Origin: Hyphomicrobiales bacterium | GTDB lineage: Bacteria; Pseudomonadota; Alphaproteobacteria; Rhizobiales; Rhizobiaceae | DNA length: 64,000 nt | Assembly: GCA_900471815.1 (NCBI GenBank) | Contig: UICE01000004.1 | Coordinates: 524,131-588,130, forward strand | Direction: 5' to 3' | In this document: positions 6,881-47,936 of the stretch, piece after piece | How the letters are laid out: every line of letters begins with the position of its first letter | Numbering within the stretch: the stretch's first letter is position 1 | Translations under genes and position numbers: made by a program | The notes under the pieces: model-generated | Database searches by the model: none | The model's input: the letters and a program-made list of their open reading frames with translations, nothing else | What the model was told of the DNA's origin: nothing

Positions 6881-6901
6881 TTTGTATCTCTCGTCTGAAG
6901 C

Positions 6902-7753: not shown

Positions 7754-7805
7754 ATTGTTTCCTTAACTGGAGACCGCCAAGTTTCGACGCCGGAACGCCG
7801 ATGTT

Positions 7806-9602: not shown

Positions 9603-9628
9603 TTATTGTTCCTGCTTTGTATGAATTC

Positions 9629-11433: not shown

Positions 11434-11472
11434 GGGGCAACACTTTAAAACTGGAAACGGGAAGGCAAGGGA

Positions 11473-11491
11473 GCGGCCGCGGATGGGCCGC
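11473..11491 (-). other. Intercistronic GC-rich hairpin downstream of binding-protein gene
   Basis: GCGGCC at 11473-11478 and GGCCGC at 11486-11491 form a six-bp all-GC stem with a seven-base loop in the gap between the binding-protein gene (ends 11507) and the permease gene (starts 11433). No T run follows, so a full terminator is unlikely. Such stems after binding-protein genes are commonly thought to shield the 3' end of the abundant binding-protein transcript; that is inferred here. Confidence 0.6.
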
Positions 11492-11506
11492 CCCAGCCCA
11501 TGAAGA

Positions 11507-13009: not shown

Positions 13010-13785
13010 TGGATTCCCTCTGTAGTTGAACTTTTTTTACTGCTGATTTTATCATTGGGCGCTACGTCCCAAACTGGCGCCACGCTGTCTGTAAGCTGCA
13101 TGGCTTCAATGACTGCGCTGCGAATGGAGAGCAGATGCTTGCGCATGGCAGCCTCTGCCTCGGCAGGATCGAACCGGCGAATAGCCTCAATCACCGCGTC
13201 GTGCTGCTCTACTGAAAGGGTTGTGCGACCCGAGGACCGGGTCCGTTCACGAAAGTGACGCCAGGCATCGTTCTGGCGAATCTGGTCGATCATTCCCATG
13301 AAGAGAATGAAAAGTTGATTGCCCGCAGATTCCGCGATCTTGCGATGGAACGCGCCGTCCCAAAGCTCCCAGGAATCAATGTCGGTGGCGTCTTTTGCCT
13401 TGGATGCCAGCCTTTCCAGCTGCTGTATAAGAACGGGTGTGGCCTTCGTGGCAGCGATGCGTGCGAGAACCGGCTCGATTTCAATGCGCACCTCCATCAC
13501 CTCAAGCGGATTGGTAAATTCTGCCAGATTGCTGACCCGCAGCGTGCTTGAGACCTGTTGGGAACCGGCAAAAGTTCCTTTGCCCTGCTGACGCCAGATA
13601 AGGCCTTCATCTTCCAGAACCTCAAGCGCTCGGCGAAGAGCGCGCCGTCCCACACCGATTTCCTCGGCCAATTCACGCTCCGGTGGAAGGCGCAATTCGC
13701 CGCCCAGCGGAACAGAACTCAGCAATATGCGCAGACGCTCAAGGGCGTGCCCGGAATTTGCAGCAGGTTTGGCACGAACGGGCAT
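13006..13785 (-). CDS. GntR family (FCD/FadR subfamily) transcriptional regulator
   Basis: 259 residues. The N-terminal winged helix covers about 12-80: LPPERELAEEIGVGRRALRRALEVLEDEGLIWRQQGKGTF contains the recognition helix. Residues of about 90-235 form an FCD effector domain (FTNPLEVMEVRIEIEPVLARIAA, then DGAFHRKIAESAGN, then HDAVIEAIRRFDPAEAEAAMRKHL), with metal-type histidines in the usual positions. It is the first gene of the minus-strand importer operon and overlaps the binding-protein gene by four bases, so it very probably controls its own operon. A palindrome at 13823-13834 upstream is a candidate operator. Confidence 0.9.
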   Translation of the reverse strand: MPVRAKPAANSGHALERLRILLSSVPLGGELRLPPERELAEEIGVGRRALRRALEVLEDEGLIWRQQGKGTFAGSQQVSSTLRVSNLAEFTNPLEVMEVRIEIEPVLARIAATKATPVLIQQLERLASKAKDATDIDSWELWDGAFHRKIAESAGNQLFILFMGMIDQIRQNDAWRHFRERTRSSGRTTLSVEQHDAVIEAIRRFDPAEAEAAMRKHLLSIRSAVIEAMQLTDSVAPVWDVAPNDKISSKKSSTTEGIQ

Positions 13786-14227
13786 GGGAAACCTTCAAAA
13801 GCGGATCAATATGAAGAATGGTTCACAAATGTGAGGCGCATGCCTTGGTGTATAAATGAGAATATAAAGCGCGTCTCCAAGGCTTGTCGCACTTTCCACT
13901 AAAATTTAGCCTATTTAACAATAAACAACGACGCAACCAATTTCTTTTATGGTTCACTTTATTTGCGGCAATAGGGTTAAGGTAGGTCAAACCAAGATTT
14001 GTTCGCCGCGAAAGAACTGCCGGAATGGTATAGATTCGAGCAGCGGCTTTGCTCCCAACCAAGACGCGCCCGCTCAACGCGATGCTCTGGCTTGTCAATC
14101 ATATTGGTGCCAATCCCTCTTAAAATTGTCGACAATATCGTTGACAAAGAGAAATCCTTATGGCCCTATGCTTTCAATAAATCGCGGTCAAGCTTGCAAA
14201 AGGCACTCGCGGAAGAGGGAAACATTG
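13786..14227. promoter_or_regulatory. Divergent intergenic region between the two importer operons
   Basis: About 440 bases without a credible gene. On the left side a 12-bp palindrome TCACAAATGTGA at 13823-13834 lies 38-49 bases ahead of the GntR gene start and may be its operator; the phrase ATGGTTCAC occurs at 13818-13826 and again at 13949-13957. The right side holds the tandem ATTGT-type operator at 14125-14148, and TTGACA at 14141-14146 with TATGCT at 14167-14172 as a loose promoter candidate (20-bp spacing). The middle is A/T-rich with no stable structure that I can see. Short frames through this region look like chance. Confidence 0.6.
14125..14148 (+). promoter_or_regulatory. Tandem GntR/FCD-type operator ahead of the first binding-protein gene
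   Basis: ATTGTCGACAAT at 14125-14136 is a perfect 12-bp palindrome; it is directly followed by the related ATCGTTGACAAA at 14137-14148. The same motif, ATTGTNGACAAT, recurs at 24862-24873 and 26321-26332 around the second GntR gene. It fits the TNGTnnnACNA style of FadR-subfamily operators. The second copy overlaps TTGACA, a possible -35 element, so binding would be expected to repress. Confidence 0.75.
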
Positions 14228-15796
14228 ATGATGCGAATGCGAAAATCCATTCTGATGGCGGTGACATCAATCCTGTTATTGGGAACAGCCGCAGAGGCGG
14301 CGACGCTTAAATGGGCAGGGCAGCGGGACATATTCTCCCTGGATCCCTATTCCTATGGCTCGACCTCAAATCTCGCCTTTCTGAACCATATTTACGAAGG
14401 TCTGGTGCGTTACACGCCGGAATTTGAAGTCGTTCCGGCATTGGCCACGGAGTGGCAGCTGATCGACAATAAATATTGGCGTTTCAAGCTGCGCCAAGGC
14501 GTAAAGTTTCATGATGGTTCGGATTTTGACGCCGATGACGTCATTGCCTCGCTCAAGCGGGTCAGCGCGCCATCATCGCCCTTGAGAGGAAATATCCCGC
14601 TCTATGCCGGCTCGAAGAAGGTCGACCAGTACACGGTCGATATCGAGGTTTCAGCGCCATCGCAGTTGTTTCTCAATGATATGACAAACATCTTCATGTT
14701 CGACGCGAAGTGGCTTGCGGATAATAAGAGCGAGCAGCCCACCGATGTCGGCGCTAAGGTTGAAGGTTATACAACCTACCACGCCAATGGCACCGGGCCT
14801 TTCAAGCTGGAAAGCCGCGTGCCGGACAGCAAGACGACGCTCGTCGTGAATGAAGGCTGGTGGGACGAGAAGAAGCACAATCTCGATCGCATTGAATTCA
14901 CCCCGATCACTTCAGCGGCAACGCGTGTTGCAGCGCTATTATCCGGCGAGGTCGATCTGGTGGATGCGGCCCCCATTCAGGATATCAGCCGCCTTGAAGC
15001 AACGCAGGGCATAAAGGTCGACAAGCGCTCCGATTTGCGCACGATTTCGATTGCCTTTAACCGCCGCGAAAAATTGACCGATGGCCGCGACAATCCATTC
15101 AATGATTTGCGGGTCCGGCAGGCATTTGATCACGCCATTGACCGGAACCTGATCAACAAGAAGGTCATGCGCGGACTGGCGCATCCCGCAGGCGTTTTGG
15201 TTGCACCCGAGATCCCCGGTTATGATGCCACGCTTGACGTGCCTGCAACCTATGATCCGGAATTGTCCCGCAAGCTCCTTGCCGAAGCCGGGCAGACTGA
15301 TCTGGCCTTTACCTATCTTTGCATGAATGACGAAAGCGTGAACGAGGAGGACGTTTGCTCAGGTGTCGTCAACATGTTGAGCCGGGCAGGATTCAAGCCA
15401 ACGCTCGATATAGGACCGCGTGCTGTGCAGACGCCCAAGCGTTCGAGCGGCAAGTCCGATGTTTATATGGTCGGCTGGGCAAATGAGCCTACGCTTGATG
15501 CCTATTCAATATTGGTTCAGGTGCTTTCCACCCGCAACGGCGCCGATGGCGTGGCGAATTACGGTGGCTGGTCCTATCCCGAACTCGACAAAATGGTGAA
15601 AGACGCCGCCTTGGAGCAGGACCGGGAAAAGCGGCTGGCAATTGAAACTGCGGCACTGAAATTCGCCAAGGATCAGGCAATCATGATCCCTTTGCATCAG
15701 CAGCCAATGGCATGGGCCACAAGCAGCAAGATTGAGAGTGTCGTAATCCGGGCTGATAACAAGCCACGGCACTGGCTGACGCGCATGAGCGAGTAA
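14228..15796 (+). CDS. Peptide-type ABC transporter substrate-binding protein 1 (SBP_bac_5)
   Basis: 522 residues from the ATG at 14228, preceded by GGAAGAGGGA. The first 24 residues are a Sec signal peptide (MMRMRKSILMAVTSILLLGTAAEA). The mature protein starts ATLKWAGQRDIFSLDPYSYG and carries the SBP_bac_5 features YEGLVRY, ALATEW, LRQGVKFHDG and NRREKLTDGRDNPFNDLRVRQAFDHAIDR. A much longer upstream frame exists but lacks coding character. It is a close paralogue of the next gene (both have SLDPYSYG, HANGTGPF and LPLHQQPMAW-type stretches). It is the receptor of the importer encoded downstream and the first gene of the regulon controlled by the ATTGT-type operators. Confidence 0.92.
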   Translation: MMRMRKSILMAVTSILLLGTAAEAATLKWAGQRDIFSLDPYSYGSTSNLAFLNHIYEGLVRYTPEFEVVPALATEWQLIDNKYWRFKLRQGVKFHDGSDFDADDVIASLKRVSAPSSPLRGNIPLYAGSKKVDQYTVDIEVSAPSQLFLNDMTNIFMFDAKWLADNKSEQPTDVGAKVEGYTTYHANGTGPFKLESRVPDSKTTLVVNEGWWDEKKHNLDRIEFTPITSAATRVAALLSGEVDLVDAAPIQDISRLEATQGIKVDKRSDLRTISIAFNRREKLTDGRDNPFNDLRVRQAFDHAIDRNLINKKVMRGLAHPAGVLVAPEIPGYDATLDVPATYDPELSRKLLAEAGQTDLAFTYLCMNDESVNEEDVCSGVVNMLSRAGFKPTLDIGPRAVQTPKRSSGKSDVYMVGWANEPTLDAYSILVQVLSTRNGADGVANYGGWSYPELDKMVKDAALEQDREKRLAIETAALKFAKDQAIMIPLHQQPMAWATSSKIESVVIRADNKPRHWLTRMSE

Positions 15797-15799
15797 TTG

Positions 15800-15818
15800 G
15801 TAGCGCTTCGGCGCTATC
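15800..15818 (+). other. UUCG-capped hairpin just after binding-protein gene 1
   Basis: TAGCGC at 15801-15806, the tetraloop TTCG at 15807-15810 and GCGCTA at 15811-15816 give a very stable stem; flanking GG and CC extend it with one bulge. It begins within five bases of the stop codon of the first binding-protein gene. No T run follows, so it looks like a transcript-end stabiliser or a partial attenuator and not a full terminator. Confidence 0.7.
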
Positions 15819-15883
15819 CGATAAGCAAGGGAAGACCTCCGTTCAAGGGGGCGACCAACATCCAGAAGCGGAGCACAACCAGA

Positions 15884-17443
15884 ATGTTTAAGCAACTAGG
15901 CCTAGCGGCCACGGTGGCATTGACCCTCATTTTACCCAGTCATGCCGAAACTCTCAAATGGGGCGCGCCCCGTGATATTTACTCGCTCGATCCCTATTCC
16001 TACGGGGATAGCTATACGATTGCCTTCCTGAACCATGTATATGAAGGCCTCGTCAGATATGACGCGAAATTGCAGATTGAGCCTGCTCTTGCGACCTCAT
16101 GGGAAGTTGTCTCGGATAATGTCTGGCGCTTCCACCTGCGTCAGGGCGTCAAGTTCCACAATGGCGCAACGTTTACATCTGCGGATGTGCTGGCCTCGTT
16201 GACACGCGTGAGCGACAAGACATCGCCGCTTCGCGGTAATCTGCCGGCCTATAAATCAGCCAAGGTGGTTGATGACTATACGATCGATATTGAATTGACG
16301 GGGCCTTACCCGCTGCTCCTTAACGATCTTACCAATATTCACATTTTCGATGAGACTTGGCTGACCGACAACAATTCGCTGAAGCCAACCGATGTGGGTG
16401 CGAAGCTGGAAGGCTATGCGACCTATCATGCGAATGGAACCGGACCCTTCGTCGTTGAAAGCCGGGTGCCCGACAGCAAGACCATTCTGGTGAAGAATGC
16501 GCAATGGTGGGACAAGTCCGACAGCAATGTCGACCGCATCGAGTTTACACCCATCGTTTCGGCAGCAACCCGCGTTGCGGCGCTGCTTTCAGAAGAGATC
16601 AATTTCACGGACAATGCTCCATCGCAGGATATTCCGCGCCTTGCTGCTCAGCCAAACCTTAAAGTCATGGAGCGTACCGATCTTCGGACTGTGATGATCG
16701 GTTTCAACCGCAAGGCCAAGCTCGACAATGGCACGGAGAACAAGTTCAACGATCTGCGCGTGCGTCAGGCATTTGCTCATGCGCTCGACCCGCAACTGAT
16801 CCAGAAGCGTATCATGCGCGGCAAGTCCAGAACTGCCGGAGCAATCATTGCACCGGAAATTCCAGGCTATACGGAAGCGCTCGACAAGCCCGTACCATTT
16901 GATCCGGAACTGTCCAAAAAGCTACTGGCAGAAGCTGGCGCGACCGATTTACCCTTTACCTTCGTTTGCACCACCGACGCCTATGTCAATGAGGAAGAAC
17001 TGTGCCAGGGCATGATCAATATGCTCAGTCGCGGTGGTTTCAAGCCTCAGCTTGATATTGCGCCAGCCGCCGCACAAACGCCAAAACGCGCAAATGGCAA
17101 GGCGGATGTTTACCTGATCGGCTGGGCAAATGAGCCAATGCTCGACAGCTACTCCATCCTGCTTCAGATGATCCAGACAAAGACGGATAATGCCGGGGTC
17201 TTCAATTGGGGTGGATGGTCTTATCCTGAAATCGACAAGCTGATCGTCCAGGCGTCGACCGAAATGGACAGGCCCAAGCGGTTGGAACTTCAGACCAAGG
17301 CCCTGCAAATGGTCAAGGATGAGATCATCATGCTTCCTCTCCATCAGCAGCCCATGGCCTGGGTAATGACGGGCAAGGTCGATAGCATCGTTCAGCTGGC
17401 GGACAATAAACCTCGCCATTGGCTGACACATATTGCCAAATAA
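15884..17443 (+). CDS. Peptide-type ABC transporter substrate-binding protein 2 (SBP_bac_5)
   Basis: 519 residues from the ATG at 15884; the frame is open further upstream but that part spans the hairpin and has no protein character. Signal peptide residues 1-20 (MFKQLGLAATVALTLILPSHA). The mature protein is strongly similar to its neighbour along the whole length: ETLKWGAPRDIYSLDPYSYG, NHVYEGLVRY, LRQGVKFHNGATF, PKRANGKADVYLIGWANEPMLDSYS. The pair looks like a tandem duplication that has diverged in ligand-contact loops. Both would share the single permease pair encoded downstream, giving one importer with two receptors. Confidence 0.92.
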   Translation: MFKQLGLAATVALTLILPSHAETLKWGAPRDIYSLDPYSYGDSYTIAFLNHVYEGLVRYDAKLQIEPALATSWEVVSDNVWRFHLRQGVKFHNGATFTSADVLASLTRVSDKTSPLRGNLPAYKSAKVVDDYTIDIELTGPYPLLLNDLTNIHIFDETWLTDNNSLKPTDVGAKLEGYATYHANGTGPFVVESRVPDSKTILVKNAQWWDKSDSNVDRIEFTPIVSAATRVAALLSEEINFTDNAPSQDIPRLAAQPNLKVMERTDLRTVMIGFNRKAKLDNGTENKFNDLRVRQAFAHALDPQLIQKRIMRGKSRTAGAIIAPEIPGYTEALDKPVPFDPELSKKLLAEAGATDLPFTFVCTTDAYVNEEELCQGMINMLSRGGFKPQLDIAPAAAQTPKRANGKADVYLIGWANEPMLDSYSILLQMIQTKTDNAGVFNWGGWSYPEIDKLIVQASTEMDRPKRLELQTKALQMVKDEIIMLPLHQQPMAWVMTGKVDSIVQLADNKPRHWLTHIAK

Positions 17444-17451
17444 GTCTGGCG

Positions 17452-17478
17452 GTCGGCTTCGTTAGTTGCGAGGCGGAC
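17452..17478 (+). other. Intercistronic hairpin after binding-protein gene 2
   Basis: GTCGGCTTCG at 17452-17461 can pair with CGAGGCGGAC at 17469-17478 with one mismatch and one G-U pair, leaving the loop TTAGTTG. It fills the 54-bp gap between the binding-protein and permease genes and has no T run. It is placed like the other hairpins noted downstream of binding-protein genes in this window. Confidence 0.5.
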
Positions 17479-17497
17479 GGATTAGGGAGCGCACTAT

Positions 17498-18466
17498 ATG
17501 CTGGTTTTTATTGTGAGGCGTTTAGGAAACGCAATTCTGGTTATGCTCGCAGTAGCCATGCTCGCCTTCCTGATTTTCCGGCTCGCAGGTGATCCGGTTG
17601 AGTTGATGGCGAACGAACAGATGACGCAGGCAGACAGGAACGAGCTGCGCGAGCGGCTTGGTCTTAATGATGGTTTGCCAACGCAATATGTTCGCTTCGT
17701 CGTCAATGCAGCGCAGGGCAATTTCGGAATTTCCTACCGCAACGGACAGGATGTTCTGACGTTGATTGCCGACCGTTTTCCAGCAACGCTTGAGCTTGTG
17801 CTGGTGGCAACATTGATATCGCTTGTTCTTGGAATACCACTTGGCGTGCTCACCGCAATCAAGCGCGGCAAGTGGTACACTGAAGGATTGCAGTTCATTT
17901 CCATTGTAGGCGTGTCGTTACCGAGCTTTGTTGTCGGTATCCTGCTTATTCTGGTCTTCTCGGTCAGTCTGGGCTGGCTGCCCGCTTTCGGGCGCGGCGA
18001 CGTGGTCAAGCTTGGCTGGTGGTCGACGGGGCTTCTTACTCCATCGGGGCGTCTGGCGCTTATCCTGCCATCAATCGCGCTGTCGCTTTACCAGATCACG
18101 CTCATCATGCGGCTGGTGCGCGCCGAAATGCTGGAAGTGCTGCGTTCTGACTTTGTAAAGTTTGCGCGCGCGAGGGGTATCCCCCGTTGGCGGATTTATT
18201 TCCGGCACGCCTTGAGAAACTGCCTGATGCCCGTTGTCACCATGACCGCCATGAATATTGGTTCATTGATTGCTTTTGCCCTGATCACCGAGACCGTGTT
18301 CCAGTGGCCGGGAATGGGTATGCTGTTTATTCAGGCGGTGACATTCATCGATATACCGGTCATGGCCGCATATCTGTGCATCATTTCTTTCATTTTCGTT
18401 GTTCTGAACATGCTGGTGGATATTGCTTATGCAGTGATCGATCCCCGCTTGCGCAGCACACGCTAG
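17498..18466 (+). CDS. Peptide-type ABC transporter permease (DppB type)
   Basis: 322 residues with six membrane segments. The start MLVFIVRRLGNAILVMLAVAM, then AFLIFRLAGDPVELM, the loop RNELRERLGLNDGLPTQYVRFV, and the EAA loop LRSDFVKFARARGIPRWRIYFRHALRN identify a DppB/OppB-type subunit. The C-terminus ends DIAYAVIDPRLR, the usual terminus. It is 54 bp after the second binding-protein gene and 16 bp before the partner permease gene. Confidence 0.93.
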   Translation: MLVFIVRRLGNAILVMLAVAMLAFLIFRLAGDPVELMANEQMTQADRNELRERLGLNDGLPTQYVRFVVNAAQGNFGISYRNGQDVLTLIADRFPATLELVLVATLISLVLGIPLGVLTAIKRGKWYTEGLQFISIVGVSLPSFVVGILLILVFSVSLGWLPAFGRGDVVKLGWWSTGLLTPSGRLALILPSIALSLYQITLIMRLVRAEMLEVLRSDFVKFARARGIPRWRIYFRHALRNCLMPVVTMTAMNIGSLIAFALITETVFQWPGMGMLFIQAVTFIDIPVMAAYLCIISFIFVVLNMLVDIAYAVIDPRLRSTR

Positions 18467-18482
18467 AGCAGAGACCGGATCA

Positions 18483-19442
18483 ATGACCATTGATGCAACC
18501 AAGCCACCCAAATTGCCAAGACCGGCGCGACCGCCTTTGCACAAGCGCATTCGCAACAGTGACCTGTGGTGGTCGTTCAAGCATAGCAAGGTTGCGATTG
18601 CGGGCGCGGTCATATTGGCAGTGCTCATTCTGACAGCGGTTTTCGCGCCGCTGATCGCCATGCAAAATCCCTATGATGGTGCGCAGCTCGACATGTGGAA
18701 AGCAGAGCTTCCACCTTATTGGCAGGAAGGTGGCGAGTGGCCCTATCTGCTCGGAACCGATACGCAGGGCCGCGACATGCTTTCGGCAATTTTGTACGGG
18801 ACGCGGATTTCCATTTTCATCGGCATAGCATCCGTGGCGCTCTCCTTACTGATCGGCATGAGTGCGGGTCTGGTAGCCGGTTATTTCGAGGGTTTCATAG
18901 ACAATCTTCTGATGCGCATAGGCGACATAACGCTGTCCATTCCTACTATTCTAGTTGCCATACTGGTTTCGACAGTGGTGAGGCAGATGTTGCCAGCAGA
19001 CCTTCGCGAGATGGGCGCCTCAGCCGTGTTGGTGTTTGCGATCGCCCTGTCCGCATGGGTTCAATATGCAAGAACAGTCCGCGCCCAGACGATTGTGGAA
19101 TGCGGCAAGGACTATGTGCATGCGGCACGGCTGATCAAGGTTCCTGCGCGCAGGATCATGGGCAAACATATTCTCCCAAATACGCTCACGCCCGTGCTCG
19201 TCGCCGCCACCTTGAATTTCGGCATGGCCATTTTGACGGAAGCCACGCTGTCCTTTCTGGGTATCGGCATGCCGCCAAGCCAGCCGTCACTCGGAACTTT
19301 GATCCGTATCGGCAATCAGTTTCTGTTTTCCGGTTCGTGGTGGATCGTGCTCTTCCCGGTGCTTCAGCTGTGCCTGCTCGTCGTTGCAGTTAATCTGATC
19401 GGCGATTGGCTGCGTGACGCCCTGAATCCAAAATTGAGGTAG
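18483..19442 (+). CDS. Peptide-type ABC transporter permease (DppC type)
   Basis: 319 residues. After a basic, proline-rich cytoplasmic head comes a first helix (VAIAGAVILAVLILTAVFAPL), then a long periplasmic loop with LLGTDTQGRDMLSAILYGTR, the DppC-type signature. The EAA loop is CGKDYVHAARLIKVPARRIMGKHILPN, and the C-terminus is LIGDWLRDALNPKLR. It partners the DppB-type protein. Its TAG stop lies within the ribosome binding region of the amidohydrolase gene seven bases further on, so transport and catabolic genes are one transcript. Confidence 0.93.
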   Translation: MTIDATKPPKLPRPARPPLHKRIRNSDLWWSFKHSKVAIAGAVILAVLILTAVFAPLIAMQNPYDGAQLDMWKAELPPYWQEGGEWPYLLGTDTQGRDMLSAILYGTRISIFIGIASVALSLLIGMSAGLVAGYFEGFIDNLLMRIGDITLSIPTILVAILVSTVVRQMLPADLREMGASAVLVFAIALSAWVQYARTVRAQTIVECGKDYVHAARLIKVPARRIMGKHILPNTLTPVLVAATLNFGMAILTEATLSFLGIGMPPSQPSLGTLIRIGNQFLFSGSWWIVLFPVLQLCLLVVAVNLIGDWLRDALNPKLR

Positions 19443-19449
19443 ATGATTT

Positions 19450-20643
19450 ATGACCGATTTGCTGCTGCGCAATGTGCGACCCATGGCTGGCGAGACCTGC
19501 GATATCCTTATCGAGAACGGTGAAATTTCCGGTTTCGGTCGTTTCGAGCCCAAGCCCGGCATGGCGGTGGAAGATGGGGGCAACTCTATCGTTATCCCCG
19601 GTCTTATCGATGCGCATACACATCTCGACAAGACCACATGGGGCATGCCCTGGCATGTGAATAATCGCGCGGCGATCCTGCGCGAGCGTATCGACTTTGA
19701 GCGGGAAAACCGCAGCGATATCGGGATTGACCCGCATCGCCAATCCATGCGCCACGCGATCGGACTGGCGGCCCACGGCGCAACCCATATACGCAGCCAT
19801 GTCGATATTGATCCCACCCATGGGCTTTCCATTGTCGAGGGCGTTTGGGAAACCCGCGAAAAACTGCGCGATATCATCGATATCGAGATTGTCGCATTTC
19901 CGCAGTCCGGCCTCATGGTCATGCCCGGAACGAAGGAACTGCTTGATGAAGCGCTTGCTCAGGGCTGTGAAGTTCTGGGCGGCATCGACCCATGCGGCAT
20001 TGACCGCGATCCCAAGGGGCAGTTGGACACGATATTTGCTCTGGCAGTCAAGCATCAGCGGCCAATCGACATCCACCTCCATGAGACAGGCGATCTTGGT
20101 GCCTTCACGATGGAGCTGATTTTCGAGCGTATCCGCGCCAATGGCATGCAGGGAAAAGTCGCCATAAGTCATGCTTTCGCGCTCGGCATGAATGATTATC
20201 TGCGCGTCGGCAAACTGATTGATGAGCTAGCCGCGCTGGATGTGGCAATCCTTACAACCGGCGCGCCATCAGCGACAGTGCCATCCGTCATGAGGCTCAA
20301 GGAAGCAGGCGTTCGGGTTGGCGGCGGATGCGATGGCATTCGCGATACATGGGGGCCTTGGGGCCAGCCTGATATGCTCGACCGTGCCAAGATCATCGGC
20401 ATGAAAAACGGAATGCGGAAAGATCACGAGTTGGAGCATGTCCTGCACATTGTCTCGCAGGGTGGTGCTGATGTCATGCGGATCGAAGGATATGGCCTGA
20501 ACATTGGATGCAATGCGGACATGACATTGCTTACGGGCGAGACGCTTGCCCATGCTGTTGTTGACGTGGCGCCGCGTCCATTGGTTATCAAGCGCGGGCG
20601 CGTGACAGCCCGCGCCGGTCAAGCCATTGTGGATATGCCATGA
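19450..20643 (+). CDS. Amidohydrolase of the cytosine-deaminase-like subfamily
   Basis: 397 residues with a complete metal site. After a short N-terminal beta sandwich come IPGLIDAHTHLDKT (His56, His58), IDIHLHETGD (His209, His211, Glu212), ISHAFALG (His241) and GGGCDGIRDTWGPWG (Asp295). The HLHE and CDGIRDTWGPWG motifs resemble those of bacterial cytosine deaminase (CodA) and related N-heterocycle deaminases. No signal peptide, so cytosolic. It is coded seven bases after the permease gene, and its stop overlaps the next amidohydrolase gene (ATGA). Likely role: hydrolysis or deamination of an imported cyclic amide or pyrimidine-like compound; the exact substrate is unknown. Confidence 0.85.
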   Translation: MTDLLLRNVRPMAGETCDILIENGEISGFGRFEPKPGMAVEDGGNSIVIPGLIDAHTHLDKTTWGMPWHVNNRAAILRERIDFERENRSDIGIDPHRQSMRHAIGLAAHGATHIRSHVDIDPTHGLSIVEGVWETREKLRDIIDIEIVAFPQSGLMVMPGTKELLDEALAQGCEVLGGIDPCGIDRDPKGQLDTIFALAVKHQRPIDIHLHETGDLGAFTMELIFERIRANGMQGKVAISHAFALGMNDYLRVGKLIDELAALDVAILTTGAPSATVPSVMRLKEAGVRVGGGCDGIRDTWGPWGQPDMLDRAKIIGMKNGMRKDHELEHVLHIVSQGGADVMRIEGYGLNIGCNADMTLLTGETLAHAVVDVAPRPLVIKRGRVTARAGQAIVDMP

Positions 20644-22133
20644 CAGGAAATCTGGATAGTTTGCAACTCGGCGTCAGGTCGGCAGGCAGGACATTGCTGA
20701 CCGCCGATTGGGTGCTTGGTCACAGCGATGGCACTCATCGCCTGTTCCGCAAGGGAGAGGTTGTGTTCGAAGATGGCAAGGTGCTTTTCGTCGGCCATAA
20801 TTTTGCGGGCGAGGTGGCTCGCCGCGTCGATTTTGGAAAGGCTTTGATCAGCCCGGGACTGATCGATCTGGACGCCTTGTCCGATTTGGATACGACTATT
20901 CTGGGTATCGACAACCATCCCGGTTGGGCGAAGGGCCGTGTCTGGCCGCGATCCTATGTTGAAGCCGGTCCCTATGAAATGTACACGCCGGAGGAACTGG
21001 CTTTTCAAAAGCGGTTTGCCTTTGGACAATTGCTTTTGAACGGCATAACGACGGCGGCTCCCATCGCTTCGCTTTTCTATCGCGAATGGGGCGAAACAGT
21101 CGCCGAATTCGAAGCGGCAGCGGATGCAGCGGAGGAAATGGGTCTGCGGGTCTATCTCAGCCCTGCCTATCGTGCTGGCGGCATGGTGCTGGAAAGTCCG
21201 GGCCAGATCATTCCCGTCTTTGATGAAGAACGCGGGCTACGCGGTTTGGACGATGCAGTGCGATTTATCGCAGAGCATTCGGGGCGGGGCGGCGATCTTG
21301 TGCGCGGCATGCTTACGCCGGATCGGGTGGAAACCTGTACAATAGAATTGCTCAAGCGCACGGACGCTGCTGCGCAGGAACTTGGCTGCAAGATACGCCT
21401 GCATATGGCGCAGGGCATAATGGAAGTTGAAACAGTGCGGGCGCTGCATGGCACGACGGCACCCATTTGGCTTGCCAAGCATGGATTGCTGAGTGAGCGG
21501 CTGATTGCGCCGCATGCGACCAACGCAACTGAAGAAGACTTGCGCCTCTATGCGGAAAACAATGTTTCCATCGTTCATTGCCCGCTGGTTTCAGCTCGTG
21601 GCGGAAACACGCTCAATTCCTTCTCTGCCTGCCGCAGCCGAGGCATCAATATCGCAATGGGTACCGATACGGCCCCGGCGGATATGTTGATGAATCTGCT
21701 GGTCGGTTTGATAACCTCCCGCATCAATGATGGCGTGCCGGACCGCGTGCGTTCTGCTGATCTTTTTGATGCGGCGACCCTTGGCGGGGCAAAGGCTTTG
21801 GGCAGAACGGATATTGGCCAGCTATCGCCGGGGTCGCGGGCGGATATTGCGGTGTTTGGCCTTGATGATGTGATCATGACACCGGCAATTGATCCGATCA
21901 CAACGCTTGTCACAGGCGGATCAGGCAAGGTGACACGCGCGACGTTTGTCGACGGACGACTTTCAATGCTTGGCGGCAAGGTTGCAGGTATCGACATGCA
22001 GTCCGCGCAGCTACAGGCGCAGGAACAGTTCGACCGCCTTGTCGCAAAATATCCGGAACGAAGCTGGGCGCATCCGCCGCTATCCGAGATATTTCCTTCC
22101 AGCTATCCAATGGAGAGCAACGCAAATGGGTGA
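20640..22133 (+). CDS. Second amidohydrolase (chlorohydrolase/deaminase type) lacking the HxH motif
   Basis: 497 residues of the TRZ/ATZ-like amidohydrolase family. The first metal motif, normally PGLxxxHxH, reads SPGLIDLDALSDLD, so the two histidines are replaced (Asp78 and Leu80). The later ligands are present: His255 in IRLHMAQG, His292 in IAPHATNAT and Asp343 in AMGTDTAPADML, followed by LLVGLITSRINDG and GRTDIGQLSPGSRADIAVF. Loss of HxH suggests a mononuclear metal site bound differently or a changed chemistry. Start ATG overlaps the preceding stop (ATGA), and its end overlaps the next ATPase gene by eight bases. Function unknown, presumably acting on the same imported compound. Confidence 0.82.
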   Translation: MTGNLDSLQLGVRSAGRTLLTADWVLGHSDGTHRLFRKGEVVFEDGKVLFVGHNFAGEVARRVDFGKALISPGLIDLDALSDLDTTILGIDNHPGWAKGRVWPRSYVEAGPYEMYTPEELAFQKRFAFGQLLLNGITTAAPIASLFYREWGETVAEFEAAADAAEEMGLRVYLSPAYRAGGMVLESPGQIIPVFDEERGLRGLDDAVRFIAEHSGRGGDLVRGMLTPDRVETCTIELLKRTDAAAQELGCKIRLHMAQGIMEVETVRALHGTTAPIWLAKHGLLSERLIAPHATNATEEDLRLYAENNVSIVHCPLVSARGGNTLNSFSACRSRGINIAMGTDTAPADMLMNLLVGLITSRINDGVPDRVRSADLFDAATLGGAKALGRTDIGQLSPGSRADIAVFGLDDVIMTPAIDPITTLVTGGSGKVTRATFVDGRLSMLGGKVAGIDMQSAQLQAQEQFDRLVAKYPERSWAHPPLSEIFPSSYPMESNANG

Positions 22134-23112
22134 AGCAGCCGGTCAACTCATTCTTGACGTTCGTAACCTCAGGGTGGAATTTCCCGGCCGCCATGGCACG
22201 GTCACCGCGCTTTCGGATGTCAGCCTCGACATAAGGGCTGGCGAAATCCTTGGTGTGGTTGGCGAGTCCGGCGCAGGGAAGTCGATGGCCGGTCTGTCCA
22301 TACTGGGACTGCTGGAACGGCCCGGCCATATTAGCGGTGGCGAAATCTGGCTCGAACAACGGCGGATCGACACGCTCGACGATTATGAGATGGAGAAGAT
22401 TCGGGGGCGCAAGATTGGCGCGATCTTTCAGGACCCGCTGACCTCACTCAATCCTCTGTTCACGGTCGGCGCGCAGTTGACCGAAACAATCCGTCAACAT
22501 CTGGATATGAACAAGGCACAGGCGAAAGCACGGGCGATTGAACTGCTGGGCGAGGTGGGCATTCCTTCACCTTCCGAGCGTGTCGATCATTATCCGCATC
22601 AGTTTTCCGGCGGCATGCGGCAAAGAGTGGTTATTGCCTTGGCGCTTGCCGCATCGCCCCGGCTGATCATTGCCGACGAACCGACAACGGCGCTTGATGT
22701 TTCCATTCAGGCGCAGATCATTTCACTGTTGCGCCGACTGTGCAAGGAAAAGCAAACCGCCATCATGCTTGTCACCCACGATATGGGCGTCATTGCTGAA
22801 GCCGCGGACCGGGTTGCTGTGATGTATGCGGGGCGGCTGATCGAGGTCGGGCCAGTGGAACAGGTGCTGCACGCGTCCAAACATCCCTATACGCGCGGCC
22901 TTATGGCCTCCATTCCGGCGCTCGCTGCCCGGGTCGAACGGCTCAACCAGATCGATGGCTCCATGCCACGGCTTGATGCCATTCCTGATGGCTGCGCCTT
23001 TAACACACGCTGCAAATCGGCTGGTCCGCGCTGTACCCGCGAGCAGCCGGTTCTGATCCCGGCCGGTGCTGGTGCGAGCGCCTGTTGGCTGAATGCGGGA
23101 GGAGTTGCATAA
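22126..23112 (+). CDS. Peptide-type ABC transporter ATP-binding protein (DppD type)
   Basis: 328 residues from the ATG at 22126; a longer frame from 21946 runs through the end of the amidohydrolase gene and is rejected. Walker A GESGAGKS near residue 44, signature FSGGMRQR, Walker [13 protein letters not shown], switch histidine in VTHDMGV. The C-terminal oligopeptide extension has KHPYTRGLMASIP and cysteines in CAFNTRCKSAGPRC, the DppD/OppD iron-sulfur-type motif. It overlaps the preceding gene by eight bases and touches the next gene (TAATG). Confidence 0.93.
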   Translation: MGEAAGQLILDVRNLRVEFPGRHGTVTALSDVSLDIRAGEILGVVGESGAGKSMAGLSILGLLERPGHISGGEIWLEQRRIDTLDDYEMEKIRGRKIGAIFQDPLTSLNPLFTVGAQLTETIRQHLDMNKAQAKARAIELLGEVGIPSPSERVDHYPHQFSGGMRQRVVIALALAASPRLIIADEPTTALDVSIQAQIISLLRRLCKEKQTAIMLVTHDMGVIAEAADRVAVMYAGRLIEVGPVEQVLHASKHPYTRGLMASIPALAARVERLNQIDGSMPRLDAIPDGCAFNTRCKSAGPRCTREQPVLIPAGAGASACWLNAGGVA

Positions 23113-24104
23113 TGGATATTCAACAAAAAATGCCGGCCTTTACCGCAGAGCGCCTTGTCAAGACATTTGATGTTTCCGCGCCATGGCTCAGCCGCGTGCT
23201 GGAGCGCAAGCCGCGCCAATATCTCCATGCTGTTAACGATATCAGTTTTACCGTGCCTGCCGGTGGATGCCTGAGCATTGTCGGCGAAAGCGGTTGCGGC
23301 AAATCCACCGTTGCACGCCTTGTGACGGGACTGCACCGGCCAACCAGCGGTGCGCTTCGCTTTGCACCCGGCGCGCAGGGCGCGCCTCTTTCCGTGCAGA
23401 TGATTTTCCAAGACCCGTTTGCATCGCTCAATCCGCGTTGGCGCGTCAAGAACATTGTCGCCGAGCCCCTGCGTGAATTGAAGTTGCTGAAGACACGAGC
23501 AGAGATTGCGGATCGCGTTGAGGAATTGCTTCAGATTGTCGGCCTGTCGATCTCCGATGGCGAAAAATTCCCGCATGAGTTTTCGGGCGGACAGCGACAG
23601 CGCATATCGATTGCGCGCGCGCTCGCCAGCGAACCGGAATTTCTCGTATGCGATGAACCGACTTCTGCACTCGATGTGTCTGTTCAGGCCCAAGTTCTCA
23701 ATCTTATGCGCAAACTGCAGGACGAACTCGGCCTGACCTATCTTTTCATCAGCCACGATATGAGTGTCGTCCGGCACATGTCGGATCGCATTGCCGTTAT
23801 GTATCTCGGCCGGATCGTGGAAGAGGGTGATACGGAAAAGCTTTTCGCCGACCCTCGCCATCCCTATACGCAGCTTCTGCTGCAGACGATCCCGAATGTG
23901 CAGAACCCGAACAGAAATCGCGCACCCGCCAGCGGTGAAGTGCCAAGCCCGCTCAAGCCGCCTTCAGGCTGCACATTTCATCCGCGCTGTCCGATTGCAA
24001 CAAAGCGATGCTCAGTGGAAATTCCCGAAGTGCGCATGTTGAGCAATGGCACCCGCATTGCCTGTCATCTGGTCGATGAACGCGAAGCCGCCGTGGCGCT
24101 ATGA
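23112..24104 (+). CDS. Peptide-type ABC transporter ATP-binding protein (DppF type)
   Basis: 330 residues from the ATG at 23112, which shares one base with the previous stop and has GGAGGAG eleven bases upstream. Walker A GESGCGKS near residue 60, signature FSGGQRQR, Walker B LVCDEPTSALD, switch histidine in ISHDMSV. The C-terminal part has DPRHPYTQLLLQTIP and CTFHPRCPIATKRC, as in DppF/OppF. With the DppD-type subunit it powers the importer for this cluster. It is the last plus-strand gene of the operon, convergent with the GntR gene that ends ten bases further on. Confidence 0.93.
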   Translation: MDIQQKMPAFTAERLVKTFDVSAPWLSRVLERKPRQYLHAVNDISFTVPAGGCLSIVGESGCGKSTVARLVTGLHRPTSGALRFAPGAQGAPLSVQMIFQDPFASLNPRWRVKNIVAEPLRELKLLKTRAEIADRVEELLQIVGLSISDGEKFPHEFSGGQRQRISIARALASEPEFLVCDEPTSALDVSVQAQVLNLMRKLQDELGLTYLFISHDMSVVRHMSDRIAVMYLGRIVEEGDTEKLFADPRHPYTQLLLQTIPNVQNPNRNRAPASGEVPSPLKPPSGCTFHPRCPIATKRCSVEIPEVRMLSNGTRIACHLVDEREAAVAL

Positions 24105-24114
24105 GACAGGGTAT

Positions 24115-24792
24115 TTATGCCAGGGCGGACTTCAGATCATGAGGCTGGTCGCGGATTTCGCTCAGGTCAAGCTCGGTTTCGACATGTTCCAGATGATGCT
24201 CCATAAGCTTTGTCGCAGTCTCTGGATCGCCACGGGCAATCGCTTCAACAATATCCGCGTGCTCGTCCGGGCCGCAATTGAAGCGATTGGTATTGCGGTA
24301 GACCGCCGTAATCAGCGAGCTTCTGGAAATCAGATCGCGCATCGTAGCAAAGAGGAAGTCGGAACTGGCAACTTCGGCAAGCAGCAAGTGAAAGCCGCCG
24401 GACAATTTGATAATATCGGTCGTGATGTTCTGGGCGTTGGCGGTTCTTTCCTTGGCAACGTGGGTTCGCAGTCTTGTGACATTGGCCTTGGAGATGGATT
24501 TGCAAAGCCGGTCTACGATGCACCTTTCGACCGCTCTTCGTACGAAGAATACGTCGCGTGCTTCTTCCACCGAGGGCTGGCAAACGAAGGCACCGCGATT
24601 GGGGATGATCGTGACAAGACCGTCGCGCTCCAGCGCGGCAAGAGCCTGGCGGACGCGTGCGCGACTGACATCAAAAATCGCTGCGAGCTGGCCTTCTTTA
24701 AGCTGGACGCCTGGACGAAGCCGCCGCTCGGCGATGGAAAGCCAGACACGTTCAACAATATCCTGTGCAGAAACCCCTGTTTGTTCAGTCAT
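24115..24792 (-). CDS. GntR family (FCD) transcriptional regulator of the amidohydrolase cluster
   Basis: 225 residues. The winged-helix head spans about 8-75 (IVERVWLSIAERRLRPGVQLKEGQLAAIFDVSRARVRQALAALERDGLVTIIPNRGAFV), followed by an FCD domain (EEARDVFFVRRAVERCIVDRL, HLLLAEVASSDFLF, EHADIVEAIARGDPETATKLMEHHLEHVE). AGGAGG precedes the ATG. It is transcribed away from the flavin reductase gene at 24920; the gap between them contains at least two copies of the motif ATTGTnnACnAT, the same element found before the binding-protein operon and the MarR-like gene. This makes it the best candidate for the regulator of the whole cluster. Confidence 0.9.
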   Translation of the reverse strand: MTEQTGVSAQDIVERVWLSIAERRLRPGVQLKEGQLAAIFDVSRARVRQALAALERDGLVTIIPNRGAFVCQPSVEEARDVFFVRRAVERCIVDRLCKSISKANVTRLRTHVAKERTANAQNITTDIIKLSGGFHLLLAEVASSDFLFATMRDLISRSSLITAVYRNTNRFNCGPDEHADIVEAIARGDPETATKLMEHHLEHVETELDLSEIRDQPHDLKSALA

Positions 24793-24849
24793 TTGCGCGC
24801 CTCCTCTTGAACACAGACATTCGCGATCAAACGAAAAATGTCAACTTAT

Positions 24850-24896
24850 TTTGTCTGCATAATTGTAGACAATTAATACTAGAAATTGTACACGAT
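24850..24896. promoter_or_regulatory. Operator array in the divergent GntR/flavin reductase promoter
   Basis: ATTGTAGACAAT at 24862-24873 is a near-perfect palindrome identical in 11 of 12 positions to the sites at 14125 and 26321. A weaker copy, TTTGTCTGCATA at 24850-24861, is directly adjacent, and ATTGTACACGAT lies at 24885-24896. A TGTCAAC half-site sits at 24839-24845. The array lies between the start of the regulator gene and the start of the flavin reductase gene and could control both directions. Confidence 0.72.
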
Positions 24897-24919
24897 AATT
24901 ATAGAGAGGGGAGGTTGCA

Positions 24920-25549
24920 ATGCAGTTTGACTTTACAACATTGGAACCGGACAGCCGGTATCGCCTGCTGACCAACTTTATCGGTCCACGGCCAATTGCA
25001 TTGGTCACCACCCGCTCGCAAGCGGGACACAGCAATGCGGCTCCGATGAGCTTCTTCAATGTTTTCTCCCATGATCCGGCGATCGTGGTTCTTGGTGTGC
25101 AACCGCGCCAATCTGGTGAAGAAAAAGACACCATGATCAATATTCGCCGCACCGGCGAGTTCGTTGTCAATATGGTTGATATGACCATAGCCCAGCAAAT
25201 GCTTGTTTGCGGATTGGGCTTTGACAGCGAGATCGATGAATTGGAAATGGCGGGCCTTCAGGCGGAAAAATGCGCCAAGCTCGATGCCAATTATGTGGCC
25301 ACCGCCCCATGCTCCCTTGAATGCCGTGTGGAACGCCTGATCGAGTATCCGCGCCGCGTGCTCATTCTCGGTGAGGTCGTGCACATGCATGTCCGCCGCG
25401 ATTGTCTCGATGCCGAAGGGCGTTATGTCAATCCTGAAGTCTATCAGCCCATCGCCCGCCTTCACGCTGATAATTACATCACATCTGACCGACAGTTCGT
25501 TCTCGAACCCCCGTCAATCTCTGATTTCATTAAATCCCGGCGCGACTGA
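24920..25549 (+). CDS. Flavin reductase domain (FMN-binding split-barrel) protein
   Basis: 209 residues. RYRLLTNFIGPRPIALVTTRS followed by GHSNAAPMSFFNVFSHDPAIVVLGVQ is the signature of the flavin reductase-like FMN-binding split barrel; the Pro-Met-Ser-Phe-Phe segment contacts FMN. The C-terminal half has an EVVHMHV strand and a tail typical of the DIM6/NTAB group. GGGGAGG precedes the ATG. It may supply reduced flavin to a monooxygenase, though none is coded nearby, or act directly as an FMN enzyme on the substrate of this pathway. The racemase gene follows 20 bp downstream. Confidence 0.85.
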   Translation: MQFDFTTLEPDSRYRLLTNFIGPRPIALVTTRSQAGHSNAAPMSFFNVFSHDPAIVVLGVQPRQSGEEKDTMINIRRTGEFVVNMVDMTIAQQMLVCGLGFDSEIDELEMAGLQAEKCAKLDANYVATAPCSLECRVERLIEYPRRVLILGEVVHMHVRRDCLDAEGRYVNPEVYQPIARLHADNYITSDRQFVLEPPSISDFIKSRRD

Positions 25550-25569
25550 CGCGGTGAAGGAACTGAACC

Positions 25570-26310
25570 ATGCATATTCATCTGATTAATCCAAATTCAA
25601 CGGCCTCCATGACTGCCCAGGTGCTTGAGAGCGCAATGCGGGTTGCCAACCCGACAACACGCGTGACTGCCGTCAATCCGCTGGATACACCCGTCAGCAT
25701 CGAGGGCGGCACAGACGAGGCAATGGCGGTTCCGAGCATGTTGTCGGAAATTGTCAAAGGCGAAGCGCAGGGTGTCGACGCCTATGTCATCGCGTGTTTT
25801 GATGATCCGGGGCTGCATGCGGCACGGGAAATTGCGCGTGGTCCTGTTGTGGGCATTTGTCAGGCTGCGGTGCAGGTGGCAATGACGATCAGCCGCCGAT
25901 TTACAGTCATTACCACCTTGCCCCGCTCCATCCCTATCATTGAAGATCTCGTTTCAGCCTATGGCGCTGATCGCCATTGCCGCAATGTTCGTGCAATCGA
26001 CCTGCCGGTGCTTGGGGTGGACAGTGATCCTGCCGAGGCAGAGCGGCTTTTGACCATCCAGATTCATAAGGCGAAGCTGGAAGATCGCGCCGAAGCGATT
26101 GTGCTTGGCTGCGCCGGAATGTCAGCCTTGTGCGAGCGGCTAAGCATTGCGACCGGTCTTACCGTCATTGATGGCGTTACCGCCGCAGTCAAACTCGCCG
26201 AGGCGCTGGTGGGGGCGGGATATGCGACCTCGAAAGTAAACGCCTATGACTTTCCCCGGATCAAAACACCATCTCCAGCCAAGATTGTCGAGCAAGCCTT
26301 GACCAGGTGA
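25570..26310 (+). CDS. Asp/Glu/hydantoin racemase family protein
   Basis: 246 residues of the Asp/Glu/hydantoin racemase family. The start HIHLINPNSTASMT is the typical phosphate/amide-binding NPN strand. The two catalytic cysteines are present in the expected contexts: Cys76 in IACFDDPGL and Cys181 in VLGCAGMSAL, the numbering also reported for rhizobial hydantoin racemase. Such enzymes interconvert D- and L-5-substituted hydantoins or related cyclic ureides by a two-cysteine proton transfer. With two amidohydrolase genes in the same regulon, this points to cyclic ureides or amides as substrates. Aspartate/allantoin-type racemase activity is the alternative. Confidence 0.86.
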   Translation: MHIHLINPNSTASMTAQVLESAMRVANPTTRVTAVNPLDTPVSIEGGTDEAMAVPSMLSEIVKGEAQGVDAYVIACFDDPGLHAAREIARGPVVGICQAAVQVAMTISRRFTVITTLPRSIPIIEDLVSAYGADRHCRNVRAIDLPVLGVDSDPAEAERLLTIQIHKAKLEDRAEAIVLGCAGMSALCERLSIATGLTVIDGVTAAVKLAEALVGAGYATSKVNAYDFPRIKTPSPAKIVEQALTR

Positions 26311-26320: not shown

Positions 26321-26332
26321 ATTGTTGACAAT
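26321..26332 (+). promoter_or_regulatory. GntR-type operator ahead of the MarR-like gene
   Basis: ATTGTTGACAAT, 11 bases after the stop of the racemase gene and 45 bases before the MarR-like ATG. It agrees with the sites at 14125 and 24862 in all positions except the central one. Its presence here suggests that the MarR-like gene belongs to the same regulon and has its own promoter. Confidence 0.7.
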
Positions 26333-26377: not shown

Positions 26378-26968
26378 ATGATGACGGCCGGGCCGCAGGA
26401 TAATGATGACGCAGAGAAAGAGCAATTTGCGACAGCACTGCCAAAGCATCTCAAGCCTGTAACGTCAATCGGCCCCATCGTGTCTTCGGCACATCTTGCC
26501 GATGGCGTTTCCCCTGGTCTTTCCGAAGTAGAATATGGTTTGATCCTCGCTTCCCATGCCTTTTCGCGCTGGATGGTTCGATGCATGGCCGCTGCCGGAC
26601 TGCCGGGGCTTTCAGCAACAGAGATTCTCATACTCCATTCGGTACGCCATCGAGACCGGGAAAAGAAGTTGGCGGACATTTGCGTGGTGCTCGATATTGA
26701 AGACACCCATGTCGCCACATACGCCATTCGCAAACTGGAAGCGGCCGGCTTGGTCAGCACCGGTAAAATTGCCAAAGAAAAAACTATCAGGATTACGGAA
26801 AAAGGCTCCGACGCCTGCGCGCGTTATGCCCAGATACGGGAACGCTTATTTGTAGCGTCAACGATCAATGCGCGCCCTGCAGAAGAAACCCTTTCGGAGA
26901 TAGCCGCAGTTCTGCGTTTCCTTTCAGGCGCCTATGATCAGGCATCGCGCGCTGCCACCACGCTGTAA
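26378..26968 (+). CDS. MarR-type winged-helix DNA-binding protein
   Basis: 196 residues. An acidic, probably flexible N-terminus of about 50 residues is followed by a winged-helix region: ASHAFSRWMVRCMAAAGLPGLSATEILILHSVRHRDREKKLADICVVLDIEDTHVATYAIRKLEAAGLVSTGK, then ITEKGSDACARY. This pattern belongs to the MarR superfamily. Ribosome binding site GAGGGG precedes the ATG. The location directly after the racemase gene, with the shared operator upstream, suggests a second regulator of the heterocycle cluster. Its 3' end overlaps a possible small gene on the other strand by 45 bases. Confidence 0.82.
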   Translation: MMTAGPQDNDDAEKEQFATALPKHLKPVTSIGPIVSSAHLADGVSPGLSEVEYGLILASHAFSRWMVRCMAAAGLPGLSATEILILHSVRHRDREKKLADICVVLDIEDTHVATYAIRKLEAAGLVSTGKIAKEKTIRITEKGSDACARYAQIRERLFVASTINARPAEETLSEIAAVLRFLSGAYDQASRAATTL

Positions 26969-27232: not shown

Positions 27233-27600
27233 TAGTCTTCTCGTTACATTGATGAATCACAGGGAAGGGCGGAAAGGAGGCATCAGTGCCTTACAACGCG
27301 TTCCCGCTTTCGGGTCAGGCATCGTTCGGACAAGTTAAACGCTTGTCTGTGAAGTCCATGTGACACGCTCCAAATTCGGGGCGCTTCAGACTCGCAAAAG
27401 CACCCTGCCGGGACCTTTTAAAAAGCGGAACCTGTGCCAATCCCCAAAAAGTCTACCGCTACTGTCCACTTATAGTTGCAAACTCAACCGGCTTGTCTTA
27501 ACGAAAAGATGAGTGGAAGAGTCAAGATTACATTGCGCTTCCAGTGGACGTGGAAAAGGCGGGCAGTGCCCCGCAAGACGTGAATGATAAAGGGTCCCAG
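27233..27600 (+). other. Intergenic region ahead of the siderophore receptor gene
   Basis: About 370 bases without a convincing gene. GACAAG at 27329-27334 and CTTGTC at 27342-27347 form an inverted repeat around TTAAACG, a possible operator. I looked for a cobalamin riboswitch and for Irr/Fur-type boxes and recognise none. A GTG-started extension of the receptor frame to 27544 has no ribosome binding site. Confidence 0.4.
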
Positions 27601-42289: not shown

Positions 42290-42298
42290 TGATAAATA

Positions 42299-43761: not shown

Positions 43762-43770
43762 GGAAAACGA

Positions 43771-44664: not shown

Positions 44665-44674
44665 GGAGCTCATC

Positions 44675-47931: not shown

Positions 47932-47936
47932 AGGCG

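Follow-up and report, generated by a model that had tools for sequence, protein, structure and literature searches.

A conserved alphaproteobacterial cassette combining a peptide-type importer, two amidohydrolases and a racemase: a candidate ureide- or hydantoin-type catabolic regulon

Analysis of a 64,000-nucleotide stretch of the genome of a soil bacterium of the Hyphomicrobiales, family Rhizobiaceae (assembly GCA_900471815.1, contig UICE01000004.1, positions 524,131 to 588,130; the whole stretch is hereafter the window) identified at window positions 14228-26310 a cassette that unites an ATP-binding cassette (ABC) importer, two amidohydrolases (AH1 and AH2), a GntR-family regulator, a flavin-reductase-like protein (FR) and a racemase (RAC). 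Comparison with other genomes demonstrated that this is a real and widespread alphaproteobacterial catabolic cassette, whose gene set is kept together far beyond chance and whose intergenic regions share a palindrome, TTGTNNACAA. We consider it nearly an even prospect that these genes form a GntR-controlled regulon by which a nitrogen heterocycle is imported, deaminated and degraded via a chiral, allantoin-type 5-substituted hydantoin. Each of the protein families is already known; for their combination, a putative ureide- or hydantoin-type catabolic regulon, no description was found in the open-licence literature searched. The features of the cassette, with the palindromic sites taken from a palindrome scan, are:

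14126..14135, strand not given: TTGTCGACAA, proposed GntR operator before SBP1
14228..15796, plus strand: SBP1, family-5 substrate-binding receptor (SBP_bac_5, 293.4 bits)
15884..17443, plus strand: SBP2, second family-5 receptor (SBP_bac_5, 272.4 bits)
17498..18466, plus strand: PermB, permease of DppB/NikB type
18483..19442, plus strand: PermC, permease of DppC type
19450..20643, plus strand: AH1, PRK05985 amidohydrolase of AtzC/cytosine-deaminase type, HxH present
20640..22133, plus strand: AH2, PRK06151 amidohydrolase, DxL replacing HxH
22126..23112, plus strand: AtpD, ATPase of OppD/DppD type
23112..24104, plus strand: AtpF, ATPase of DppF type
24115..24792, minus strand: gntR, GntR-family regulator with FCD domain
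24863..24872, strand not given: TTGTAGACAA, proposed operator between gntR and FR
24920..25549, plus strand: FR, flavin-reductase-like protein
25570..26310, plus strand: RAC, two-cysteine racemase of allantoin/hydantoin type
26322..26331, strand not given: TTGTTGACAA, third site, between RAC and a MarR-like gene

The original prediction, made from the sequence alone, had described a peptide-type importer with two receptors, a cytosine-deaminase-like amidohydrolase, a second amidohydrolase lacking HxH, a two-cysteine racemase of the hydantoin type and a flavin reductase, and all of the genes that it named were present at 14228-26310. The coding sequences are tightly packed, with overlaps of 4 bp between AH1 and AH2 and 8 bp between AH2 and AtpD and a gap of 20 bp between FR and RAC; gntR alone lies on the minus strand. 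The G+C content of the cassette (0.554) is close to that of the window (0.552), so that composition gives no sign of foreign origin, and scanning the window with Rfam and a tRNA search returned no matches.

Conservation was computed from a scan of named genomes with AH2 as the query, which confirmed 529 AH2 relatives. Counts were made on the best 80 of the 529, and since these are close relatives found through AH2, which is thus present in all 80 by construction, they are not a random sample; the presence limit for the other genes was 35% identity. The synteny search called for in the original prediction found nine core genes (PermB, PermC, AH1, AH2, AtpD, AtpF, gntR, FR and RAC) together in 74 of the 80 loci. 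Incomplete loci comprised two short stretches in which genes of the right-hand part are missing (L090 and L093, 11.7 and 13.5 kb), one without six genes (L072), two without FR (L125 and L128) and one without RAC above 35% (L137). Gene by gene, a receptor was present in 78 loci, RAC in 76, a further amidohydrolase, AH4, in 51 and the AH2 paralogue AH3 in 22. The loci come from Rhizobiaceae and relatives, Rhodobacteraceae, Devosia and Inquilinus, and the cassette is also carried on Sinorhizobium symbiotic megaplasmids. The PRK06151 family to which AH2 belongs is patchy: 12 of the 297 genomes examined from the order have a member above cut-off, and matches at E <= 1e-100 occurred in 9 of 398 genomes of the phylum and 5 of 385 of the class (own genome included).

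More distant versions were examined in 21 loci, viewed over 13.7-23.4 kb each, that hold AH1 together with either AH2 or AH3. GntR was present in 18 of these, FR in 15, AH4 in 10, RAC in 9 (one at 31% identity) and the allantoinase AllB in 2. Versions in Marinovum, Sulfitobacter and Rhizobium sp. RCAM05350 retain GntR, the importer, FR, AH1, AH2/AH3 and RAC in altered order, several genes of the RCAM05350 version being interrupted. Seven contexts of another genus (L156-L158 and L195-L198) hold AH1-AH2 with GntR (7/7) and FR (5/7) and without RAC (0/7).

The regulator carries the domains of the GntR/FCD family (GntR, 55.9 bits; FCD, 71.6 bits). In the window, TTGTNNACAA occurs at 14126 (before SBP1), 24863 (between gntR and FR), 26322 (after RAC) and 47234, the last inside a nitrite-reductase-like open reading frame (ORF); these four copies compare with 0.55 expected, and none of 100 shuffles reached four. 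Across the 80 loci no other of the 256 palindromes of this form (four bases, two-base gap) was as widespread as TTGTNNACAA. Regions between cassette genes, taken with 400 bases ahead of the first gene and 100 beyond the last, held 185 of the 199 copies in 78 of the 80 loci (1.42 per kb), compared with 7 in cassette coding sequence (0.0074 per kb) and 7 elsewhere, an approximately 190-fold higher intergenic density. The commonest positions were the gntR-FR interval and the region upstream of the receptors. These features suggest that TTGTNNACAA is likely the GntR operator of the close group, as a candidate site. That the genes form one regulon, which had previously been asserted only, gains support from this density between cassette genes in 78 of the 80 loci together with the copies in the window. 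Among the distant loci, TTGTNNACAA lay between genes in 7 of 21 (L048, L049, L153, L206, L208, L209 and L212), and no intergenic copy was found in the seven contexts of another genus. Two observations concern further copies. The TTGTTGACAA site (26322-26331) precedes by 46 bases a MarR-like gene (26378-26968) that was seen in no locus of the close group of 80; perhaps the regulon acquired this gene, or perhaps the site is only a relic. In a Phyllobacterium-group genome (G017, locus L203), a further peptide-type importer and another GntR-like match, which has a TTGTNNACAA site, are found close to allE, the (S)-ureidoglycine aminohydrolase gene.

Both receptors of the importer carry SBP_bac_5 and are 60.5% identical to each other; the nearest solved structure to SBP1 is 5u4o, with YliB, DppA and AccA among others lower. 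The permeases and ATPases are of the dipeptide/nickel type; the transporter resembles Dpp/Opp/Nik importers, and both receptors and both permeases fell under every equivalog cut-off listed for a named dipeptide, oligopeptide or nickel importer. In the seven contexts of another genus AH1-AH2 are kept together beside a different ABC ATPase (33-35% identical to AtpF), with a receptor in L157 that best matches PotD and a permease in L156 that best matches PotC, both below cut-off. As the same enzymes are found beside a different importer, the substrate cannot be read off from the class of transporter. The Dpp/Opp type of the receptors and ATPases would agree with an importer of peptides, opines or cyclic dipeptides equipped with amide-cleaving enzymes, a reading that is very improbable given the change of transporter beside AH1-AH2 and given that no recurring peptidase was seen in the cassette. 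L157 additionally has nearby a permease distantly like that of the urea-carboxylase system (226 bits, cut-off 740).

AH1 scored 554.7 bits on PRK05985 (cut-off 408), and its nearest solved relatives were 6nbo, then AtzC (188 bits), then cytosine deaminases (101-113 bits), in agreement with the cytosine-deaminase-like assignment. Residues H56, H58, H209, H211, E212, H241 and D295 were invariant in 10 of 10 aligned sequences; this HxH, H, E, H, D set, which we take to be the metal ligands and catalytic residues, is that of the cytosine deaminase/AtzC branch and matches 6nbo and AtzC, but AtzC has Asp at the E212 position. On the allantoinase model AH1 reached 30.3 bits (cut-off 357.85) and on the D-hydantoinase model 23.5 bits (cut-off 393.25). 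By its likeness to AtzC and cytosine deaminase, AH1 looks like a hydrolase of an exocyclic C-N bond and not a ring-opening enzyme, which makes an amino- or imino-substituted precursor the more likely substrate. The original prediction also argued from ring-opening type enzymes; none was recognised in the window cluster. Among solved structures AH4 is closest to AtzA (148 bits, S. meliloti copy), and no AH4 was found in the window's own genome at E <= 1e-30.

AH2 was assigned to PRK06151 with 748.6 bits (curated cut-off 416). Metal-dependent hydrolases of the TRZ/ATZ type carry an HxH pair and an HxxE glutamate. AH2 has neither: D78-A79-L80 stands at the HxH position and Gln258 at the HxxE position in all 61 aligned sequences (60 of the 80 loci plus the window), in which the segment DLDALSDLDTT and residues H255, Q258, H292, H313 and D343 are also identical. 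In a wider alignment of 20 sequences, L051, L052, L056-L058 and L059 keep DLDALSDLD, L055 shows one change and L054 has N for D78, while L060, L061 and three AH4 proteins have HxH. Since HxH is kept in these relatives, its loss looks to be derived within a single clade, with the replacement under strong constraint. This can be interpreted as a catalytically dead AH2 that serves as a structural partner of AH1, consistent with the lost HxH, the Gln at the HxxE position and the 4 bp gene overlap; we regard this as unlikely, because the invariance of H255, H292, H313, D343 and DLDALSDLDTT is stricter than expected for a scaffold, and it would in any case be compatible with the other readings of the cassette. 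A structure model of AH2 (predicted local distance difference test, pLDDT, 85; predicted template modelling score, pTM, 0.90) was nearest to the isocytosine deaminase Vcz, an Oleispira amidohydrolase and AtzA, with TrzN lower on the list. AH2 thus offers a natural test of a deaminase fold without the HxH metal ligands.

Alternatively, the cassette may break down a natural compound resembling an aminopyrimidine or triazine through a series of deaminations, as a natural counterpart of the atrazine upper pathway (AtzA-AtzB-AtzC) to which the allantoin genes are accessory. We judge this rather unlikely, though several features favour it: AH1 is closer to AtzC than to cytosine deaminases, AH4 is nearest AtzA, the AH2 model has isocytosine deaminase, the Oleispira protein and AtzA as its neighbours with TrzN close behind, L154 adds a TadA-like deaminase (below model cut-off), and the racemase is missing from 12 of the 21 distant cassettes in the stretch viewed. 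The similarity to the atrazine enzymes is distant, likeness to triazine hydrolases being common across the superfamily, and AH2 differs in lacking HxH, while the cassette adds a racemase, FR, an importer and a regulator. Successive deaminations would also leave unexplained RAC in 76 of the 80 close loci and the allE, allB and hydantoinase neighbours described below, and no cyanuric-acid or barbiturase gene was recognised, though no search was aimed at either. AH1 and AH4 may reveal natural roles of atrazine-enzyme relatives.

RAC carries an Asp_Glu_race domain (196.9 bits), and its nearest solved relatives were 3qvj, titled a putative hydantoin racemase, and the allantoin racemase 5lfd. Both of its cysteines align with those of 3qvj, and the related entry 3qvk has Ser there, so that by domain and cysteine pair RAC may be placed in the allantoin/hydantoin branch of the Asp/Glu/hydantoin racemase family, as originally predicted. 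A Klebsiella homologue is 45.9% identical, and RAC was the sole match in the window's genome at E <= 1e-10. The presence of a racemase had been put forward as an argument for a chiral substrate; the racemase is general in the close group only, as taken up below.

FR carries the Flavin_Reduct domain, in line with the flavin reductase first proposed, and its nearest solved relative is 2-nitrobenzoate nitroreductase (4z85). In the Rut pyrimidine pathway a flavin-reductase-like protein likewise stands beside hydrolases and the RutA-type oxygenase. The cassette shares the flavin-reductase-like protein beside hydrolases and differs in the nearest relative of FR; no RutA-type oxygenase was found among the cassette proteins scanned, the genome not being searched for one. 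By eye, no partner oxygenase was identified among neighbouring ORF families present in at least 4 of the 80 loci, the commonest of which, itself left unidentified, recurred in 10 loci.

A link to ureides and hydantoins was indicated by genes that adjoin the cassette in some relatives. AllE is encoded beside it in 10 of the 80 loci: two are from Rhizobium, one is from Phyllobacterium, and seven share an Ensifer-type arrangement, of which six are recorded as Ensifer or Sinorhizobium and the seventh as 'Rhizobiales bacterium'; the two AllE examples that were scored (L067 and L119) were both above model cut-offs. In the Ensifer type allE follows directly after gntR on the gntR strand, and in Phyllobacterium myrsinacearum AN3 it follows FR-RAC. 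Flank length predicts 0.12 such loci, assuming one copy per 5.5 Mb in each genome, and the adjacency exceeds this chance expectation even when counted as three independent arrangements. In S. meliloti ml45 (L210) AllB follows AH4-AH1-AH2; it scored 526.6 bits on TIGR03178 (cut-off 357.85) and 556.2 and 437.9 bits on two narrower allantoinase models, below their cut-offs of 631 and 688. In L200 an AH2 relative stands beside a D-hydantoinase/dihydropyrimidinase (796.2 bits, cut-off 647), a D-carbamoylase (N-carbamoyl-D-amino-acid hydrolase, 378.8 bits to 6lei) and two racemase-family proteins that are 33% identical to RAC. Two candidates were set aside: a PuuE-like gene beside two Pantoea-like copies (79 and 78 bits, cut-off 424.6) was not counted, and for an ergothioneine/hydantoin-5-propionate route two ErtD models matched the S. 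meliloti allantoinase below cut-off (330.5 and 302.9 bits; cut-offs 650 and 600). Weak matches to the PuuE of L213 were seen in L055, L200 and L201.

Allantoin catabolism of the all/hpx type comprises allantoin racemase, AllB/PuuE and AllE, and hydantoin utilisation (hyu) comprises hydantoinase, carbamoylase and hydantoin racemase. The cassette shares the racemase family with both, has allE or allB beside some of its copies, and in L200 is represented by an AH2 relative next to hyu-type proteins. It differs from a canonical allantoin cluster in its ABC importer, AH1, AH2, FR and often AH4 or AH3, and from a hyu cluster in having deaminase-type amidohydrolases instead; no allantoinase, allantoate-degrading gene (allantoate hydrolase included), hydantoinase or carbamoylase was recognised among the window cluster proteins scanned. 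Direct scavenging of allantoin or simple hydantoins, with the amidohydrolases substituting for allantoinase or hydantoinase, would account for RAC and for the allE and allB neighbours. We hold this to be decidedly unlikely: AH1 is far under both the allantoinase and the D-hydantoinase cut-offs, the S. meliloti and L200 versions have an allantoinase or hydantoinase besides AH2, and two to four amidohydrolases would be redundant.

Several results weigh against a hydantoin or allantoin intermediate. The ten allE loci amount to three arrangements only, and the window cluster contains no recognised ring-opening enzyme. RAC was seen in 9 of the 21 distant cassettes with AH1-AH2 and in none of the 7 contexts of another genus, so that a racemase step is not general. 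No RAC, FR or GntR was seen in the two S. meliloti cassettes with allB (19.4 kb viewed), and no AH1, FR or GntR in L200 (20 kb viewed), whose genome is 70% complete. Over the 297 genomes of the order, allE was found in 6 of 12 with PRK06151 and in 84 of 285 without (p = 0.20, not significant), the 12 positives including G068 (L060), whose protein keeps HxH; among 11 chosen genomes of the genus, allE passed the cut-off in all 6 that have AH2 and in 2 of the 5 that lack it, numbers too few to judge. In the window's genome allE lies approximately 387 kb from the cassette on the same contig, and no other allantoin gene was recognised around it by eye, PuuE not being searched for. This genome has no AllB relative closer than 36%; the 36% relative is a dihydroorotase (271.6 bits on the allantoinase model), and those at 30% and 32% were not scored. 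The cyclic amide or ureide substrate of the original prediction is thus partly supported, by the racemase family, by the operator and by the allE, allB and hydantoinase/carbamoylase neighbours, the latter in a minority of loci only.

Taking these results together, we infer a chemistry in which the two receptors would feed the peptide-type importer with a small nitrogen heterocycle, probably bearing an exocyclic amino or imino group, whose exocyclic C-N bond AH1 would hydrolyse in the manner of cytosine deaminase and AtzC. AH2 and FR may act in further steps, giving a chiral, allantoin-type 5-substituted hydantoin at whose stereocentre RAC would equilibrate the two forms. Ring opening and the last hydrolyses would then fall to an allantoinase, a hydantoinase, a carbamoylase or a ureidoglycine aminohydrolase; in some relatives genes for one or two such enzymes adjoin the cassette, and other hosts would supply them from elsewhere. 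It is from such neighbours, in a minority of loci, that we infer the hydantoin or allantoin end of the route. An undescribed pathway may also be envisaged that imports an imino- or guanidino-hydantoin (such as iminoallantoin/guanidinohydantoin formed from oxidised guanine, or a hydroimidazolone derived from arginine), in which AH1 would remove the exocyclic nitrogen group to yield allantoin or a 5-substituted hydantoin and AH2, with Asp for the first His of HxH, would represent a new metal-centre type of the amidohydrolase superfamily acting on the ring. We consider this combination improbable.

The original prediction knew of no described pathway with exactly this gene set, and our literature search agrees with this: no description of the gene combination, the palindrome or the HxH-less AH2 clade was found in the open-licence literature, subscription papers not being covered. 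The accessible portions of PMC4016543, PMC11698098, PMC12746152, PMC8407117 and PMC6321122 describe no such cassette. As Devosia riboflavina has the cassette, riboflavin/lumichrome catabolism was considered; the available part of PMC12746152 gives a P450, amidases and a catechol dioxygenase, with neither 'flavin reductase' nor 'racemase' in that text, and the reading was dropped. Conservation of nine genes and their own palindrome across several groups suggests that some widely met nitrogen compound is used by a route for which no description was found, and the clear palindrome and small gene set make the cassette directly testable.

A few observations on individual records and on the remainder of the window are added. 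A record titled Bacillus subtilis SK6B4 (L115) contains a cassette like that of Pseudochrobactrum records, and this assembly is probably mislabelled or contaminated. S. meliloti 1021 (pSymA, L227; 20 kb viewed) has only an AH2 piece of 431 residues and a 154-residue allB fragment, unlike S. meliloti ml45, which has the whole cluster. Upstream of the cassette, window positions 5060-13785 hold another importer of the peptide type, accompanied by an FCD regulator of its own (domain match), as well as a TauE-like permease (6902-7753) and a gamma-glutamyltransferase-like gene (7806-9602); this region, in which all but the regulator were named by eye, is perhaps for gamma-glutamyl compounds. Downstream, a TonB siderophore-receptor-like gene and a major facilitator superfamily (MFS) transporter lie at 27544-30998 and nitrate/nitrite assimilation genes at 40862-52049, all named by eye.

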